Shown here piece by piece: positions 1-33,803 of a stretch of 40,956 nt of DNA. Position 1 is the stretch's first letter. Each line of letters begins with the position of its first letter. Below the pieces are notes generated by a model. It was not told the origin of the DNA. It saw nothing but the letters and a program-made list of their open reading frames with translations, and searched no databases. This DNA is from Actinomycetota bacterium (GTDB lineage Bacteria > Actinomycetota > Acidimicrobiia > Acidimicrobiales > RAAP-2). A program made the translations under genes and the position numbers. Location: positions 1 through 40,956 of the forward strand of contig JAJPJD010000025.1 of the NCBI GenBank assembly GCA_021324355.1, written 5' to 3'.

Positions 1-326
<326 letters not shown>

Positions 327-30691: not shown

Positions 30692-30886
30692 TCAGCGGCC
30701 GAGCATGCGGCGGACCAGCCGTTCGTCGGCCTTGGCCACCCCGGTCTCGGTGGCCAGCCGGCGAGTCCGCTTGGACGCCTTCTTCTCCAACAGGTGGGAG
30801 CGGAACGCCTGGCGCCGGCGGAGGCGGCCGCTCCCGGTCACCTTGATCCGCTTCGCCGCTCCCCGATCGGTCTTCATCTTGGGCAT
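30692..30886 (-). CDS. rpmI: 50S ribosomal protein L35
   Basis: A 64-residue basic ribosomal protein with the family start [20 protein letters not shown] and [14 protein letters not shown]. The ATG at 30886 is used rather than the in-frame upstream codons because it gives the universal N terminus. It directly follows the infC stop (1 nt between), so it is translationally linked to IF3 expression. 55 nt separate it from rplT. Confidence 0.96.
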
Positions 30887-30887
30887 C

Positions 30888-31513
30888 TCAGGCCCCCTCT
30901 TCGGACTGGCCAGCATCGGACGGACCACCGTCGGCTGGGGCCTCGGCCGGCTCCTCCTGGCGAGCGGCGCGGGCCGCCGCCGACTGGCGAGCCCGCTTGT
31001 CCGGGGCGAGCACCATCACCATGTTGCGGCCGTCTAGGCGGGGCTCGAACTCGACCTTCGCCGAGTCGCGCAGTTGCTCGGCCACCCGGTCCAAGATCCG
31101 CTTGCCCAACTCGGGGTGGAAGACCTCGCGACCTCGGAACATGATCGTGAGCTTCACCTTGTGCCCCTCGTCGAGGAACTTGGCCACCTGGCGGGTCTTG
31201 GTCTCGAAGTCGCCCGGCCCGATCTTGGGCCGGTACTTCATCTCTTTGATCCCGACGTGAACCGCCTTGCGCCGCGACTCCTTGGCCCGCTGGGCTTCAT
31301 CGAACTTGAACTTGCCGTAGTCCATGATCCGGCACACCGGCGGGTTGGCCATCGGGGCGACCTCGACCAGGTCGAGATCGAGCTCCCGGGCGATGGCCAA
31401 CGCTTCGGGCAACGGCTTGATCCCGAGCTGCTGGCCGTCGGGGTCGACCAGCCGGACCTCGCGGCCCGGATGCGGTCGTTGACGCGGTGCTCGTTGGTGG
31501 TCTCAGTGACGAT
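30888..31513 (-). CDS. infC: translation initiation factor IF-3, ATC start, interrupted by an apparent 1-nt deletion
   Basis: IF-3 keeps 30S subunits free and checks start-codon pairing. From 31412 down, the normal protein is read (PEALAIARELDLDLVEVAP, PPVCRIMDYGKFKFDEAQ, KVKLTIMFRGRE, DGRNMVMVLAP). The usual N terminus is split over two frames. ATC 31513 opens MVTETTNEHRVNDRIRA, with AAGGAG 9 nt upstream (31528-31523), and VRLVDPDGQQLGIKPL follows in another frame. One extra C near 31462-31463 (CGGGCCCGC instead of CGGGCCGC) would restore NDRIRAREVRLVD, the family pattern. Because infC is essential, a sequencing error or a rescued frame is likelier than a true loss. Without repair the first in-frame TTG is at about 31412, which would remove some 34 residues. 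The C terminus has a disordered tail rich in Ala, Glu and Gly. Confidence 0.88.
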
Positions 31514-31649
31514 GCGGCATCACTCCTTCCGGTCGGGCGCGCGGCTCGCCGCCGGGCGCTGTGGCGGAGAGCGGGCGGCCACCGGGTTGCCCGGAGCGGC
31601 CGTTCGAACCCGGCGCACCGAGAGCCCACGCGGGTGGTGGCCGGGTGGA

Positions 31650-31666
31650 GGTGGCCTCGGGCCACC
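31650..31666 (-). other. stem-loop in the predicted infC leader
   Basis: A perfect 7-bp stem with a 3-nt loop (minus strand GGTGGCC-CGA-GGCCACC), about 140 nt upstream of the infC ATC. No T-run follows, so it is not an intrinsic terminator. It would lie near the 5' end of an infC mRNA starting at about 31686 and may be a leader structure. Confidence 0.4.
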
Positions 31667-31691
31667 CCGCTTTCCGTTGTGCTCGGCTGTG

Positions 31692-31698
31692 TAGGGTA
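31692..31698. promoter_or_regulatory. overlapping divergent -10 elements for the DUF1844 gene and infC
   Basis: TAGGGTA reads TAGGGT on the plus strand (31692-31697) and TACCCT on the minus strand (31698-31693), both fitting the TAnnnT -10 pattern. On the plus side six bases (ACCAGC) separate it from the ATG at 31704, the spacing of a leaderless mRNA. On the minus side it would give infC a leader of about 170 nt. -35 elements are weak in both directions. Confidence 0.4.
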
Positions 31699-31703
31699 CC
31701 AGC

Positions 31704-32117
31704 ATGTCCAGTCTCTGGACACCCTCTGGCGAACACCGGGTGGGCGACCAGGGAGGGCGGCCGGCGCCGACCGGTCCTGCGGACGCGCCCGGCGGTCCCG
31801 AGCAGCCGGACCGAGCGCAAGCCCAGGCCGAGGTGGAGGCCCTCCGACGCCAGCTGGCCGAGAGCCCGGCCGAGACGGTCGTCGCCAACCACTGCTACGG
31901 CCTGTTCGAGCTGGCCGCGGTGTACCTGTCGGCCGACCCGCCCCAGCTGGCAAAGGCCCGCCTGGCCATCGACGCCCTGGGGCTGCTGGTCGACGGGCTC
32001 GGGGACCGGCTCGGGGAGGCCACCGCCGCCCTGCGCGACGGCCTGACCCAGCTCCGCCTGGGCTACGTCCAGGTCGATCAGGCCGTGCGCTCGGGCTCCC
32101 GGCCCGGGTCGAGCTGA
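31704..32117 (+). CDS. DUF1844 family protein
   Basis: A 137-residue protein of unknown function. The first 50 residues are polar and Pro/Gly-rich, probably disordered. Residues about 55-130 are helical and match the pattern of DUF1844 proteins (ETVVANHCYGLFELAAVYLS, then ARLAIDALGLLVDGLGDRL and LRDGLTQLRLGYVQV). Genes of this type are often next to infC in actinobacteria, and here it is divergent from infC. No Shine-Dalgarno precedes the ATG, and a -10-like TAGGGT ends 6 nt upstream, so the mRNA may be leaderless. It ends 8 nt from the convergent cold-shock gene. Confidence 0.8.
   Translation: MSSLWTPSGEHRVGDQGGRPAPTGPADAPGGPEQPDRAQAQAEVEALRRQLAESPAETVVANHCYGLFELAAVYLSADPPQLAKARLAIDALGLLVDGLGDRLGEATAALRDGLTQLRLGYVQVDQAVRSGSRPGSS
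31705..31721. repeat. perfect inverted repeat at the DUF1844 start
   Basis: TGTCCAG-TCT-CTGGACA, 7-bp arms and a 3-bp centre, overlapping the ATG of the DUF1844 gene and covering the -35 position for infC. It could be an operator for the divergent pair, or an mRNA hairpin at the start codon. No known regulator motif was recognised. Confidence 0.5.
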
Positions 32118-32125
32118 CCGGACGT

Positions 32126-32362
32126 TCAGCACTTCTCGACCACCCGGGCCTCGAGGCGGCCGCCGTGCCCTGGTCGGACCACGAACCGAACCCGCCGGCC
32201 CACCTCGACCTGGCGGCTCCCGTCGGTGAGCGCGGTGCAGTGGAATGAGAAGCTGGTGCCGCCGTCCTCCGTCACCGTGCCCAGCCCCCGGTCGGCCGCG
32301 AACTCGGTCACCACCCCGGCCCGGGGCCCCCGGCGGAGCGGCCAGCCGTCGGGCGCGCTCAA
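32126..32362 (-). CDS. small cold-shock-domain protein
   Basis: A 78-residue single-domain OB-fold protein. It has AGVVTEFAADRGLGTVTED (RNP1-like GLGTV) and TSFSFHCTALTDGSRQVEVG (RNP2-like SFHCTAL), ending in VVRPGHGGRLEARVVEK. The variant motifs, with FHCTAL instead of VFVHFSAI, fit a divergent actinobacterial subgroup rather than CspA proper. It should bind single-stranded nucleic acid. ATG 32362 overlaps the hisG stop as ATGA, so it is the last gene of the metK-to-hisG block. Biological target unknown. Confidence 0.82.
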   Translation of the reverse strand: MSAPDGWPLRRGPRAGVVTEFAADRGLGTVTEDGGTSFSFHCTALTDGSRQVEVGRRVRFVVRPGHGGRLEARVVEKC

Positions 32363-33240
32363 TGGACGATCTTGGCCAGGGCCAGCTCCAAGATGTCGCT
32401 GGCCCCCAGCTCCTTGAGCTCGGGGATCAAGGTGTTGATCTGGTCCTTGTGGACCACGGTCTCCACCGCGAACCCGCCCCCGGCCAGCTCGGAGACCGTT
32501 GGCGAGCGCAGCGAGGGCAGCCGCTCGATCACCGCCGCTCGCCGCTCGGCCGACACGTTGAGCTTGACCAGGACCTTCTCCCGTGCCTCGAGGGTGCCGA
32601 GCAGCAGCGTATAGAGCTGGTCCATGGCCCGCCGCCGCCGGGGGTCGGCGGCCGCGTCAGGGTTGGCGACCAGCTCGGTGTGGGAGACCAGCAGGGTGTG
32701 GATGGCCCGCAAGCCGGCCGCCCGCAGCGCTCGGCCGGTCTCGGTCAGCTCGACCACGCAGTCGGCGATGTCGGGCACCTTGGCCTCGGTGGCGCCGTAG
32801 GAGAGGGAGATCTCGGCCTCGATCCCGGCCTCGGCCAGCGCTCGCCGAGTGAGCTCGGGGTACTCGGTGGCCACCCGGAGGGGTCGCCGCTGGGCCGCCA
32901 GGTCGGCCAGGCTGGTCGCCGGGGAGGCGTCGGCCACCGCCAGCACGATCCGCACGGGCTGGCTGCTGGCCTTGGAGTACGACAGCGGACCCAGGCTGAC
33001 CAGCTCCACCCCCTGCTCCTCGATCCAGTCCCGGCCGGTGATCCCGAGGTCGAACAACCCGTCGGCCACGTAGCGCGGGATCTCCTGGGGGCGCAGGAGC
33101 CGCACCTCCGCGATCCGGTTGTCGTCGATGGTGGCCCGGTAGTCCACCTCCGAGGAGCGCCGCACTGCCAGGTCGGCCTCGGCGAACAACGCCAGGGTGG
33201 CAGCCTCGAGGGACCCCTTGGGCAGCACCAGCCGGAGCAT
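32359..33240 (-). CDS. hisG: ATP phosphoribosyltransferase, long form
   Basis: First enzyme of histidine synthesis: ATP plus PRPP to phosphoribosyl-ATP. The 293-residue protein is the long, HisZ-independent form. A catalytic periplasmic-binding-like core (LRLVLPKGSLEAATLALF, LFDLGITGRDWIEE, and the PRPP loop DCVVELTETGRALRAAGL) is followed by a C-terminal regulatory domain of about 75 residues (VLVKLNVSAERR to LELALAKIVH) that binds histidine for feedback inhibition. Its ATG shares one base with the ribH stop (TGATG). Other his genes are not in the window. Confidence 0.96.
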   Translation of the reverse strand: MLRLVLPKGSLEAATLALFAEADLAVRRSSEVDYRATIDDNRIAEVRLLRPQEIPRYVADGLFDLGITGRDWIEEQGVELVSLGPLSYSKASSQPVRIVLAVADASPATSLADLAAQRRPLRVATEYPELTRRALAEAGIEAEISLSYGATEAKVPDIADCVVELTETGRALRAAGLRAIHTLLVSHTELVANPDAAADPRRRRAMDQLYTLLLGTLEAREKVLVKLNVSAERRAAVIERLPSLRSPTVSELAGGGFAVETVVHKDQINTLIPELKELGASDILELALAKIVH

Positions 33241-33803
33241 CAGCTGACCCCCGCCTGCCGCCAGGGGCCCGGTACCGACCGGAGCACCGAGGCCAGGTGG
33301 ACCGCCGAGAGCGCGGCCTCTCGGCCCTTGTTGGTGGGGTCGGGCCGGCTCCGCTCGAGCGCCTGGTCCAGGTTCTCGGTGGTGAGCACCCCCAGGACCA
33401 CCGGCACCTGGGCATCCAGGGCGACCCGGGACAGCCCGGTGGCGCAGCCGTTGGCCACCAGGTCGAAGTGGGCGGTCTCGCCGCGGATGACCGCCCCCAG
33501 GCAGACCACCGCGTCCTGGCCGGCCGCGGCCAGCCGCTGGGCTGCCAGCGGGAGCTCGAACGCACCGGGCACCCAGACCACGGTGACGTCGGTGCGGTCG
33601 ACCGCCGCGGCCTCCAGGCCGGCCAAGGCCCCGTCGAGCAGCCGCGCCGTCACCCCCCCGTTGAACATCGAGCAGGCCAGCGCGACCCGGAGGCCTCGGC
33701 CGTCGGCCTCCTCCAGCCGGTAGCCACCCAGCTGGCGCCCGACCCGCTCGGCCACCCGGTCGAAGACCGCCGGCTCCAGCCGGGCCTGATCCTCGCCACT
33801 CAC
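33240..33803 (-). CDS. ribH: 6,7-dimethyl-8-ribityllumazine synthase
   Basis: Condenses the pyrimidine from RibD with the C4 unit from RibB to form lumazine. The 187-residue protein has [33 protein letters not shown] with the catalytic His, and [18 protein letters not shown]. It is about 30 residues longer than typical because of an N-terminal extension ([20 protein letters not shown]). GTG 33803 overlaps the ribBA stop (GTGA), which supports keeping the extension. A longer upstream frame belongs to ribBA DNA and is ignored. Confidence 0.95.

Follow-up and report, generated by a model that had tools for sequence, protein, structure and literature searches.

How are a ribosomal operon, infC-rpmI-rplT, and a gene for an uncharacterised DUF1844 protein expressed when they diverge from a common start region, and are the two controlled together? 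The window, i.e. the whole 40,956-nt stretch analysed here (assembly GCA_021324355.1, contig JAJPJD010000025.1, positions 1 to 40,956), carries on its plus strand a DUF1844-like gene of 137 aa (31704..32117; ATG at 31704-31706) and on its minus strand, in this order, infC for IF3 (30888..31513), rpmI for L35 (30692..30886; PF01632, E 3.5e-23) and rplT for L20 (30256..30636; PF00453, E 3.7e-44). Here we ask which elements between the diverging genes are conserved in relatives, and what they suggest about control in either direction.

Genes and conservation of the locus

By comparison with relatives, infC starts at an AUC codon (31513-31511, minus strand), ahead of which the sequence holds a Shine-Dalgarno (SD) element, GGAAGGAG (31523..31530, minus strand). 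The portion of infC downstream of 31412 matches Pfam IF3_N and IF3_C. Near 31461-31467 (minus strand) the infC frame is broken, one base being missing from a G/C run relative to relatives. A frame pattern was passed by 74 of the 89 leader segments that we extracted, and the 15 that failed it comprise 13 that are in frame by eye, one (L067) that could not be judged, and the window. Because IF3 is essential, the one-base gap in the window is probably a sequence or assembly error.

The 137-aa product falls below the cut-off for Pfam PF08899 (E 0.0017; 18.9 of 27 bits). With the window's genome counted each time, DUF1844 was matched in 53 of 61 relative genomes, 140 of 150 genomes of the family and 103 of 198 genomes of the class; in 67 of the 69 loci from these searches DUF1844 and infC are divergent, and IF3 was not found in the other two. 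A profile built from 15 proteins found DUF1844 in 70 of 149 phylum genomes. Among 30 phylum DUF1844 loci, 21 have IF3 on the opposite strand, 11 of them outside the class; IF3 was not found in the flank of the remaining nine. In the accessible text of the literature searched, DUF1844 is named once, as a table entry.

Between DUF1844 and hisG lies a small cold-shock-domain-like ORF on the minus strand (32126-32362), just under the Pfam cut-off (25.1 of 27 bits). The contig starts inside a 16S rRNA gene (window 1-326, minus strand); a search of the window's genome for 23S found no match, and contigs of this genome seem to break at rRNA genes.

A probable -10 element shared by divergent genes

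The heptamer TAGGGTA (31692-31698), which occurs once on the plus strand of the window, had been proposed in the initial annotation as a -10 element for both strands. Read rightward, TAGGGT (31692..31697) would be the -10 of DUF1844; read leftward, TACCCT (31693..31698, minus strand), in its TGG-extended form (TGGTACCCT), would be that of infC. A scan for E. coli-type promoters across 30800-33400 found none. The pattern TANNNTA appears three times in the window against 3.2 expected, so that only its position and conservation make TAGGGTA significant.

Both were assessed in relatives. An A following the infC box creates TANNNT on the opposite strand, and a leader-anchored rule found such an A in 68 of 76 loci (p 2e-32 against 25% chance, relatedness ignored). 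That rule scored 76 of the 89 leaders (window included), it prefers TG-extended boxes, its 13 unscored leaders include four (L040, L043, L052, L053) in which C follows the box, and it assigned L050 a different box. Because of these biases the count was repeated under a rule that ignores TG and A alike, namely the first TANNNT on the infC strand within 40 nt of the DUF1844 LW codon. This recovered an infC box in 52 of 56 loci, TG-extended in 50 of the 52, with A as the next base in 45, C in six and G in one; TANNNTA thus stands upstream of the LW codons, and near them, in 45 of 56 loci.

The distance to DUF1844 is short as well: the ATG begins 6 nt past TAGGGT in the window, and 6-8 nt separate the box from ATG or GTG in the 45 TANNNTA loci. 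A -10 only a few nucleotides ahead of the start, with no room for an SD, is the sequence arrangement of leaderless genes, and the DUF1844 mRNA is predicted to be leaderless. Transcription would begin at 31704 for DUF1844 and at 31686 for infC, and these predicted starts lie 18 bp apart, which according to the accessible text on bidirectional promoters with a shared -10 is their commonest start spacing, 10 and 23 bp also being common (PMC12825309).

The proposal of a shared divergent -10 is supported by this conservation in most loci, though not in all. At least six sister-family loci (L040, L043, L050, L052, L053, L056) keep the infC box and lose the symmetry, because the next base is C and the DUF1844 side reads GANNNT. 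In three others (L033, L041 and, as L088, the genome of L032) the leader rule finds TANNNTA, but not near a DUF1844 start. Where IF3 is present with no DUF1844 nearby (L080, L092), the base after the box is T and C, respectively. On balance, one shared promoter box probably starts DUF1844 and infC in opposite directions.

A palindrome and a probable -35 region within DUF1844 codons

A perfect palindrome, TGTCCAG-TCT-CTGGACA (31705..31721), had been noted over the DUF1844 start codon and the infC -35 position, and it is indeed there: it overlaps the ATG, and its minus strand carries TGTCCA (31716-31721) 17 bp ahead of TACCCT. By itself this is unremarkable, since the window has 52 inverted repeats that are perfect over 7-bp arms and enclose a loop of 3-8 nt (30.7 expected under a first-order Markov model); with such repeats plentiful and TANNNTA at its expected rate, conservation must decide. 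Arms of at least 6 bp were found in four of 56 loci (L001-L004), all from the window's genus, and are absent from two further loci of that genus (L005, L006). The palindrome is therefore an accident of one genus; beyond that genus it fails the refutation condition that came with the initial annotation, and on these grounds we rejected it as an operator.

What is conserved is its right half. The right arm encodes W-T, and ACA spells this threonine in 41 of 56 loci, while at other positions of these DUF1844 and IF3 genes it spells only 26 of 458 threonines (Fisher 2e-30). Use of ACA varies with the distance of the box from these codons, with 34 of 37 loci at 21-23 nt having ACA and one of eight at 18 nt (p 2e-5); it is found in six of the 11 loci without a nearby TANNNTA. 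The simplest reading of this codon bias is that GTGTCCA (31716..31722, minus strand), within DUF1844 codons 5-7 (TGG ACA C), is the infC -35 region written in DUF1844 codons, and that the right half is kept because it holds this region. The left arm arises where serine is encoded by TCC, not AGC.

Two other explanations of the promoter region have to be weighed against a shared box. The infC promoter alone may be under selection, the symmetry of TANNNTA being a by-product of -10 sequences and transcription towards DUF1844 incidental, with DUF1844 starting elsewhere. The six loci that keep the box TGGTANNNT with C next, and hence GANNNT on the DUF1844 side, would fit this account, as would the observation that -10 symmetry makes divergent transcription common in general (accessible text of PMC12825309); the frequency of A after the box under either rule and the recurrence of the 6-8 nt spacing in 45 loci argue against it, and we regard it as unlikely. 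Far less probable still is that the palindrome is the operator of a regulator controlling both DUF1844 and infC. Its perfect 7-bp arms span the start codon and the -35 position as an operator might, but it is confined to four of 56 loci, all from a single genus, and lacking in two of that genus's six, comparable repeats abound in the window, and the codons together with the -35 account for the right arm. As a control site the palindrome is thus unsupported, the conserved part being the overlap of the infC -35 with coding sequence.

A conserved leader RNA on the infC transcript

A stem-loop had also been noted early in the infC leader. It is real, and proves to be one helix (P2) of a larger conserved leader RNA, all elements of which lie on the minus strand. 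The order in the window's family is GGAAGCGGGG, P2, P3, a variable P4, a CUCCGCUCC-like P1', P5, the SD and the AUA/AUC start. The 5' strand of P1, CGGAAAGCGG (31667..31676), is defined by invariant letters, by own-versus-swapped pairing (see below) and by the minimum free energy (MFE) fold of the window; its AAG and next GG are invariant in the 35 leaders of alignment A1. Its 3' strand, P1' (CCGCUCUCCG, 31565..31574), pairs with it and is a possible SD partner. In between are the P2 hairpin, GGTGGCC-CGA-GGCCACC (31666-31650), P3 (31608..31646), in which ACCYGGCCAC pairs with GUGCGCCRGGU, and the lineage-variable P4 hairpin (31576..31602), which was drawn from the window MFE and, by eye, from A1 and A2. 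The P5 hairpin (31536..31559) lies ahead of the SD.

Three alignments were used. A1 holds 35 of the 69 loci; A2 consists of 24 leaders of A1, the six from the window's genus having been excluded on purpose and five more dropped, and is not fitted to structure; A3, with 78 matches from 87 of 110 loci, was aligned by fitting to the model; two of its matches (L059, L063) are on the wrong strand, and where a leader is of the terminator type (as in L017, L026, L075-L077) P1' falls beside the loop, not on it. RNAalifold on the MAFFT alignment A1 returned P2 and P3 only; the window MFE and inspection by eye supplied P1 and P5, which were then counted on A2, and P4 was left uncounted.

Across A2, 89.3% of cells are paired, against 85.3 when shuffled and 38-46 when slid, and changes on both sides of a pair affect 11 pairs and 43 cells (7.0 and 15.8 when shuffled). 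Such double-sided changes touch five of six pairs in P2, three of eight in P5 and three of ten in P3, where 97.9% of cells are paired. Counts in A3, which is fitted to the model, are 90.6% of cells paired and double changes in 26 of 32 pairs, including seven of ten in P3. Within A2 no P1 pair changed on both sides, and the evidence for P1 is drawn from comparison between families. Taken singly, the window leader is no more stably folded than its shuffles (z -0.70). We read the beginning of the infC mRNA as adopting a conserved RNA fold that is not yet catalogued and that probably controls infC.

Distribution and novelty of the leader

A covariance model, R1, was built from A2, from one family and without the window's genus. 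It matches the window at 31510..31675 (minus strand; E 3.0e-12), its only hit in that genome at E up to 0.01. At the same threshold and under strict filters, R1 hits only 33 of the 296 genomes sampled from the class, among them the window's and one used in training, and eight of 296 from the phylum, once in each genome; the two samples overlap, and the window belongs to both. IF3 lies just downstream on the same strand in 30 of 32 R1 loci, again including the window and one training genome. The other two hits (L097 in G231, L100 in G461) have no IF3 in the flank; they are counted as misses and are probably false positives.

Two loci (L080 in G222, L092 in G367) keep the leader with no DUF1844 found in a 1.5-kb flank, from which it follows that the RNA goes with infC. 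The suggestion of joint control of DUF1844 and IF-3/L35/L20 therefore holds as regards the shared -10 and fails as regards the leader RNA, which is on the infC transcript only.

Rfam contains nothing for the leader region of the window (31400-31800, searched up to E 5), and at gathering score gave no match in the loci of 14 relatives; the leader is not recognised by the Rfam covariance model as an L20 leader. Literature searches, in which coverage of subscription journals was limited, returned no infC leader of this kind in titles or abstracts. A conserved structured RNA that precedes a ribosomal protein operon is one mark of an r-leader, binding of a protein of that operon being another, and in the window L35 and L20 follow infC; we suggest that the RNA is a candidate r-leader, preceded by a bidirectional promoter whose type is known.

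Possible pairings with a terminator loop and with the Shine-Dalgarno

Of the 89 leaders, 32 gave a hairpin with a T-rich tail in a loosely set scan. We took 21 of these, which by eye seemed to be of one kind and were picked for strong arms and the 5' motif, two near-identical pairs (L050/L052, L095/L098) among them, for a duplex test. The arms vary widely, but letters of the type GCUUYCC recur in most loops and match the leader 5' strand. Thus GGGAAGC faces GCUUCCC in L026 and L043, GGAAAGC faces GCUUUCC in L020 and L033, and the pairs GAGAAGC/GCUUCUC (L040), GAAAAGC/GCUUUUU (L034) and GGGAAGU/ACUUCCC (L090) follow suit; in L081, L095 and L098 strand and loop pair only with mismatches. Duplexes of the 5' strand with its own loop averaged -12.4 kcal/mol over the 21 loci, compared with -11.0 when swapped between loci and -7.7 when shuffled (permutation p 1e-4). 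Over 60 distinct long A3 matches, P1:P1' likewise gave -13.1 for own and -11.7 for swapped partners (0 of 5000 permutations). Sequence relatedness inflates all of these permutation tests.

The scan found no terminator-like hairpin in the window leader, so that control there would have to be translational. In the 60 A3 matches, P1' with its own SD gave -13.3, swapped -12.8 and shuffled -11.6, a marginal difference (p 0.049), and the SD switch is therefore only suggested; the control, the P1 5' strand with the SD, gave -5.2, -5.0 and -5.4 (p 0.061). An antiterminator pairing between the P3 3' strand and the terminator arm was considered and dropped, being non-recurrent by eye in a few relatives.

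Start codon and putative ligand

The infC start is AUA or AUC in 85 of the 86 relatives scored out of 89, CTG being called in one; the window has AUC. In three leaders (L060, L064, L065) the start was placed a few codons late.

The leader stretch GAAGCGGGGC resembles the 23S stretch UAACGGGGCU in all four full-length 23S genes that were compared by motif, the match being too short to settle the ligand. We take this 23S stretch to be part of the L20 site. What L20 leaders elsewhere have in common is two G-C pairs in a row and an AA dimer, which 23S has too (accessible text of PMC7247131).

A model for the locus and its rivals

As a reading of the whole locus we favour, with moderate confidence, a bidirectional promoter joined to a conserved autoregulatory leader of infC-rpmI-rplT with a putative ligand. 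The shared -10, TAGGGTA, would drive a leaderless DUF1844 mRNA rightward and the infC-rpmI-rplT operon leftward, with the infC -35 sitting inside the first DUF1844 codons. Co-transcription of the operon being assumed, the infC transcript would open with the structured leader P1-P5, acting as a cis-regulator, whose 5' strand (GGAAGCGG) would pair with the downstream CU-rich P1'. P1' would take different places: the loop of a hairpin resembling a terminator in sister families, and the stretch between P4 and P5, with the infC SD as a possible alternative partner, in the window's family. The fold may be bound by one of the operon's own products, in the first place L20, alternatively IF3, which would thereby govern attenuation or translation, in whichever direction control runs, and the non-AUG start, AUC in the window, would add feedback by IF3. 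Conservation, pairing statistics and position are what was observed; the points of transcription start, the leaderless state of DUF1844, transcription as an operon, the ligand and the direction of control are inferred.

It may be instead that the leader has structure but no regulatory role, being a 5' UTR that serves stability or insulation, and that the only regulation is IF3 feedback at the AUA/AUC start. The near-universal non-AUG start, a ligand that is putative, and a window leader no stabler than shuffles are all compatible with this; the compensatory changes and near-invariant residues across families, and the match between 5' strand and terminator loop, suggest a specific fold, and a passive role seems improbable to us. 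A more far-reaching version of the regulatory model, which we put forward tentatively, is an attenuator common to the class, in which the 5' strand of the nascent infC mRNA would pair with the loop of its own terminator as a pseudoknot stabilised by L20 or IF3. The window's family would then have lost the terminator and re-used the strand in a switch between 5' strand and SD, while the shared hexamer would set the output of both DUF1844 and IF3/L35/L20.

Comparison with known systems

The promoter resembles E. coli bidirectional promoters in its symmetric shared -10 and its 18-bp start spacing, here predicted (accessible text of PMC12825309); unlike the E. coli cases, one side is predicted to be leaderless and the -35 of the other lies inside the neighbour's codons. 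The leader recalls Bacillus subtilis, where as here a leader stands upstream of infC-rpmI-rplT, with a terminator helix (here in sister families) and a non-AUG infC start, which is ATT in B. subtilis (accessible text of PMC10931766, PMC6097659). The two were compared by description, and differ in that the present leader has no Rfam match, its far 5' strand matches the terminator loop, and L20 binding is putative. The E. coli L20 operator and IF3 autoregulation concern the same operon genes; there, infC is regulated by IF3 and is not under L20 control, L20 acting on the two r-protein genes (accessible text of PMC10931766).

Firmicutes and Gammaproteobacteria are known to have L20 leaders, and one candidate has been described from Deltaproteobacteria (accessible text of PMC7247131). 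That candidate is likewise a further L20 scaffold proposed by comparative genomics; it comes from another lineage, was compared by description, and neither infC nor 'Acidimicrob-' appears in the accessible text of PMC7247131. A separate leader in the window's lineage, if true, would be a further, independently evolved answer to one regulatory problem, and in it the same strand would act as a terminator loop in certain families and might block the SD in others. The shared -10 would also tie the operon to the uncharacterised DUF1844, as would a -35 whose sequence restricts the choice of DUF1844 codons.

Short reading frames at the infC start

A micro-ORF in the window (ATG 31520, stop 31503) overlaps the infC start. 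We dropped it as a part of the system, since the frame in which it stands to infC is not the one seen in sister families. There, ORFs of 6-8 codons (LHRSDQP*, VTHRSDEQ*, MKSDRP*, VLTRSSGR*) end in a UAG that overlaps the infC AUA, e.g. in L033, L034, L035, L038, L048, L086, L088, L089 and L095. From its layout the arrangement may be translational coupling, but part of the peptide is spelled by the shared SD letters.
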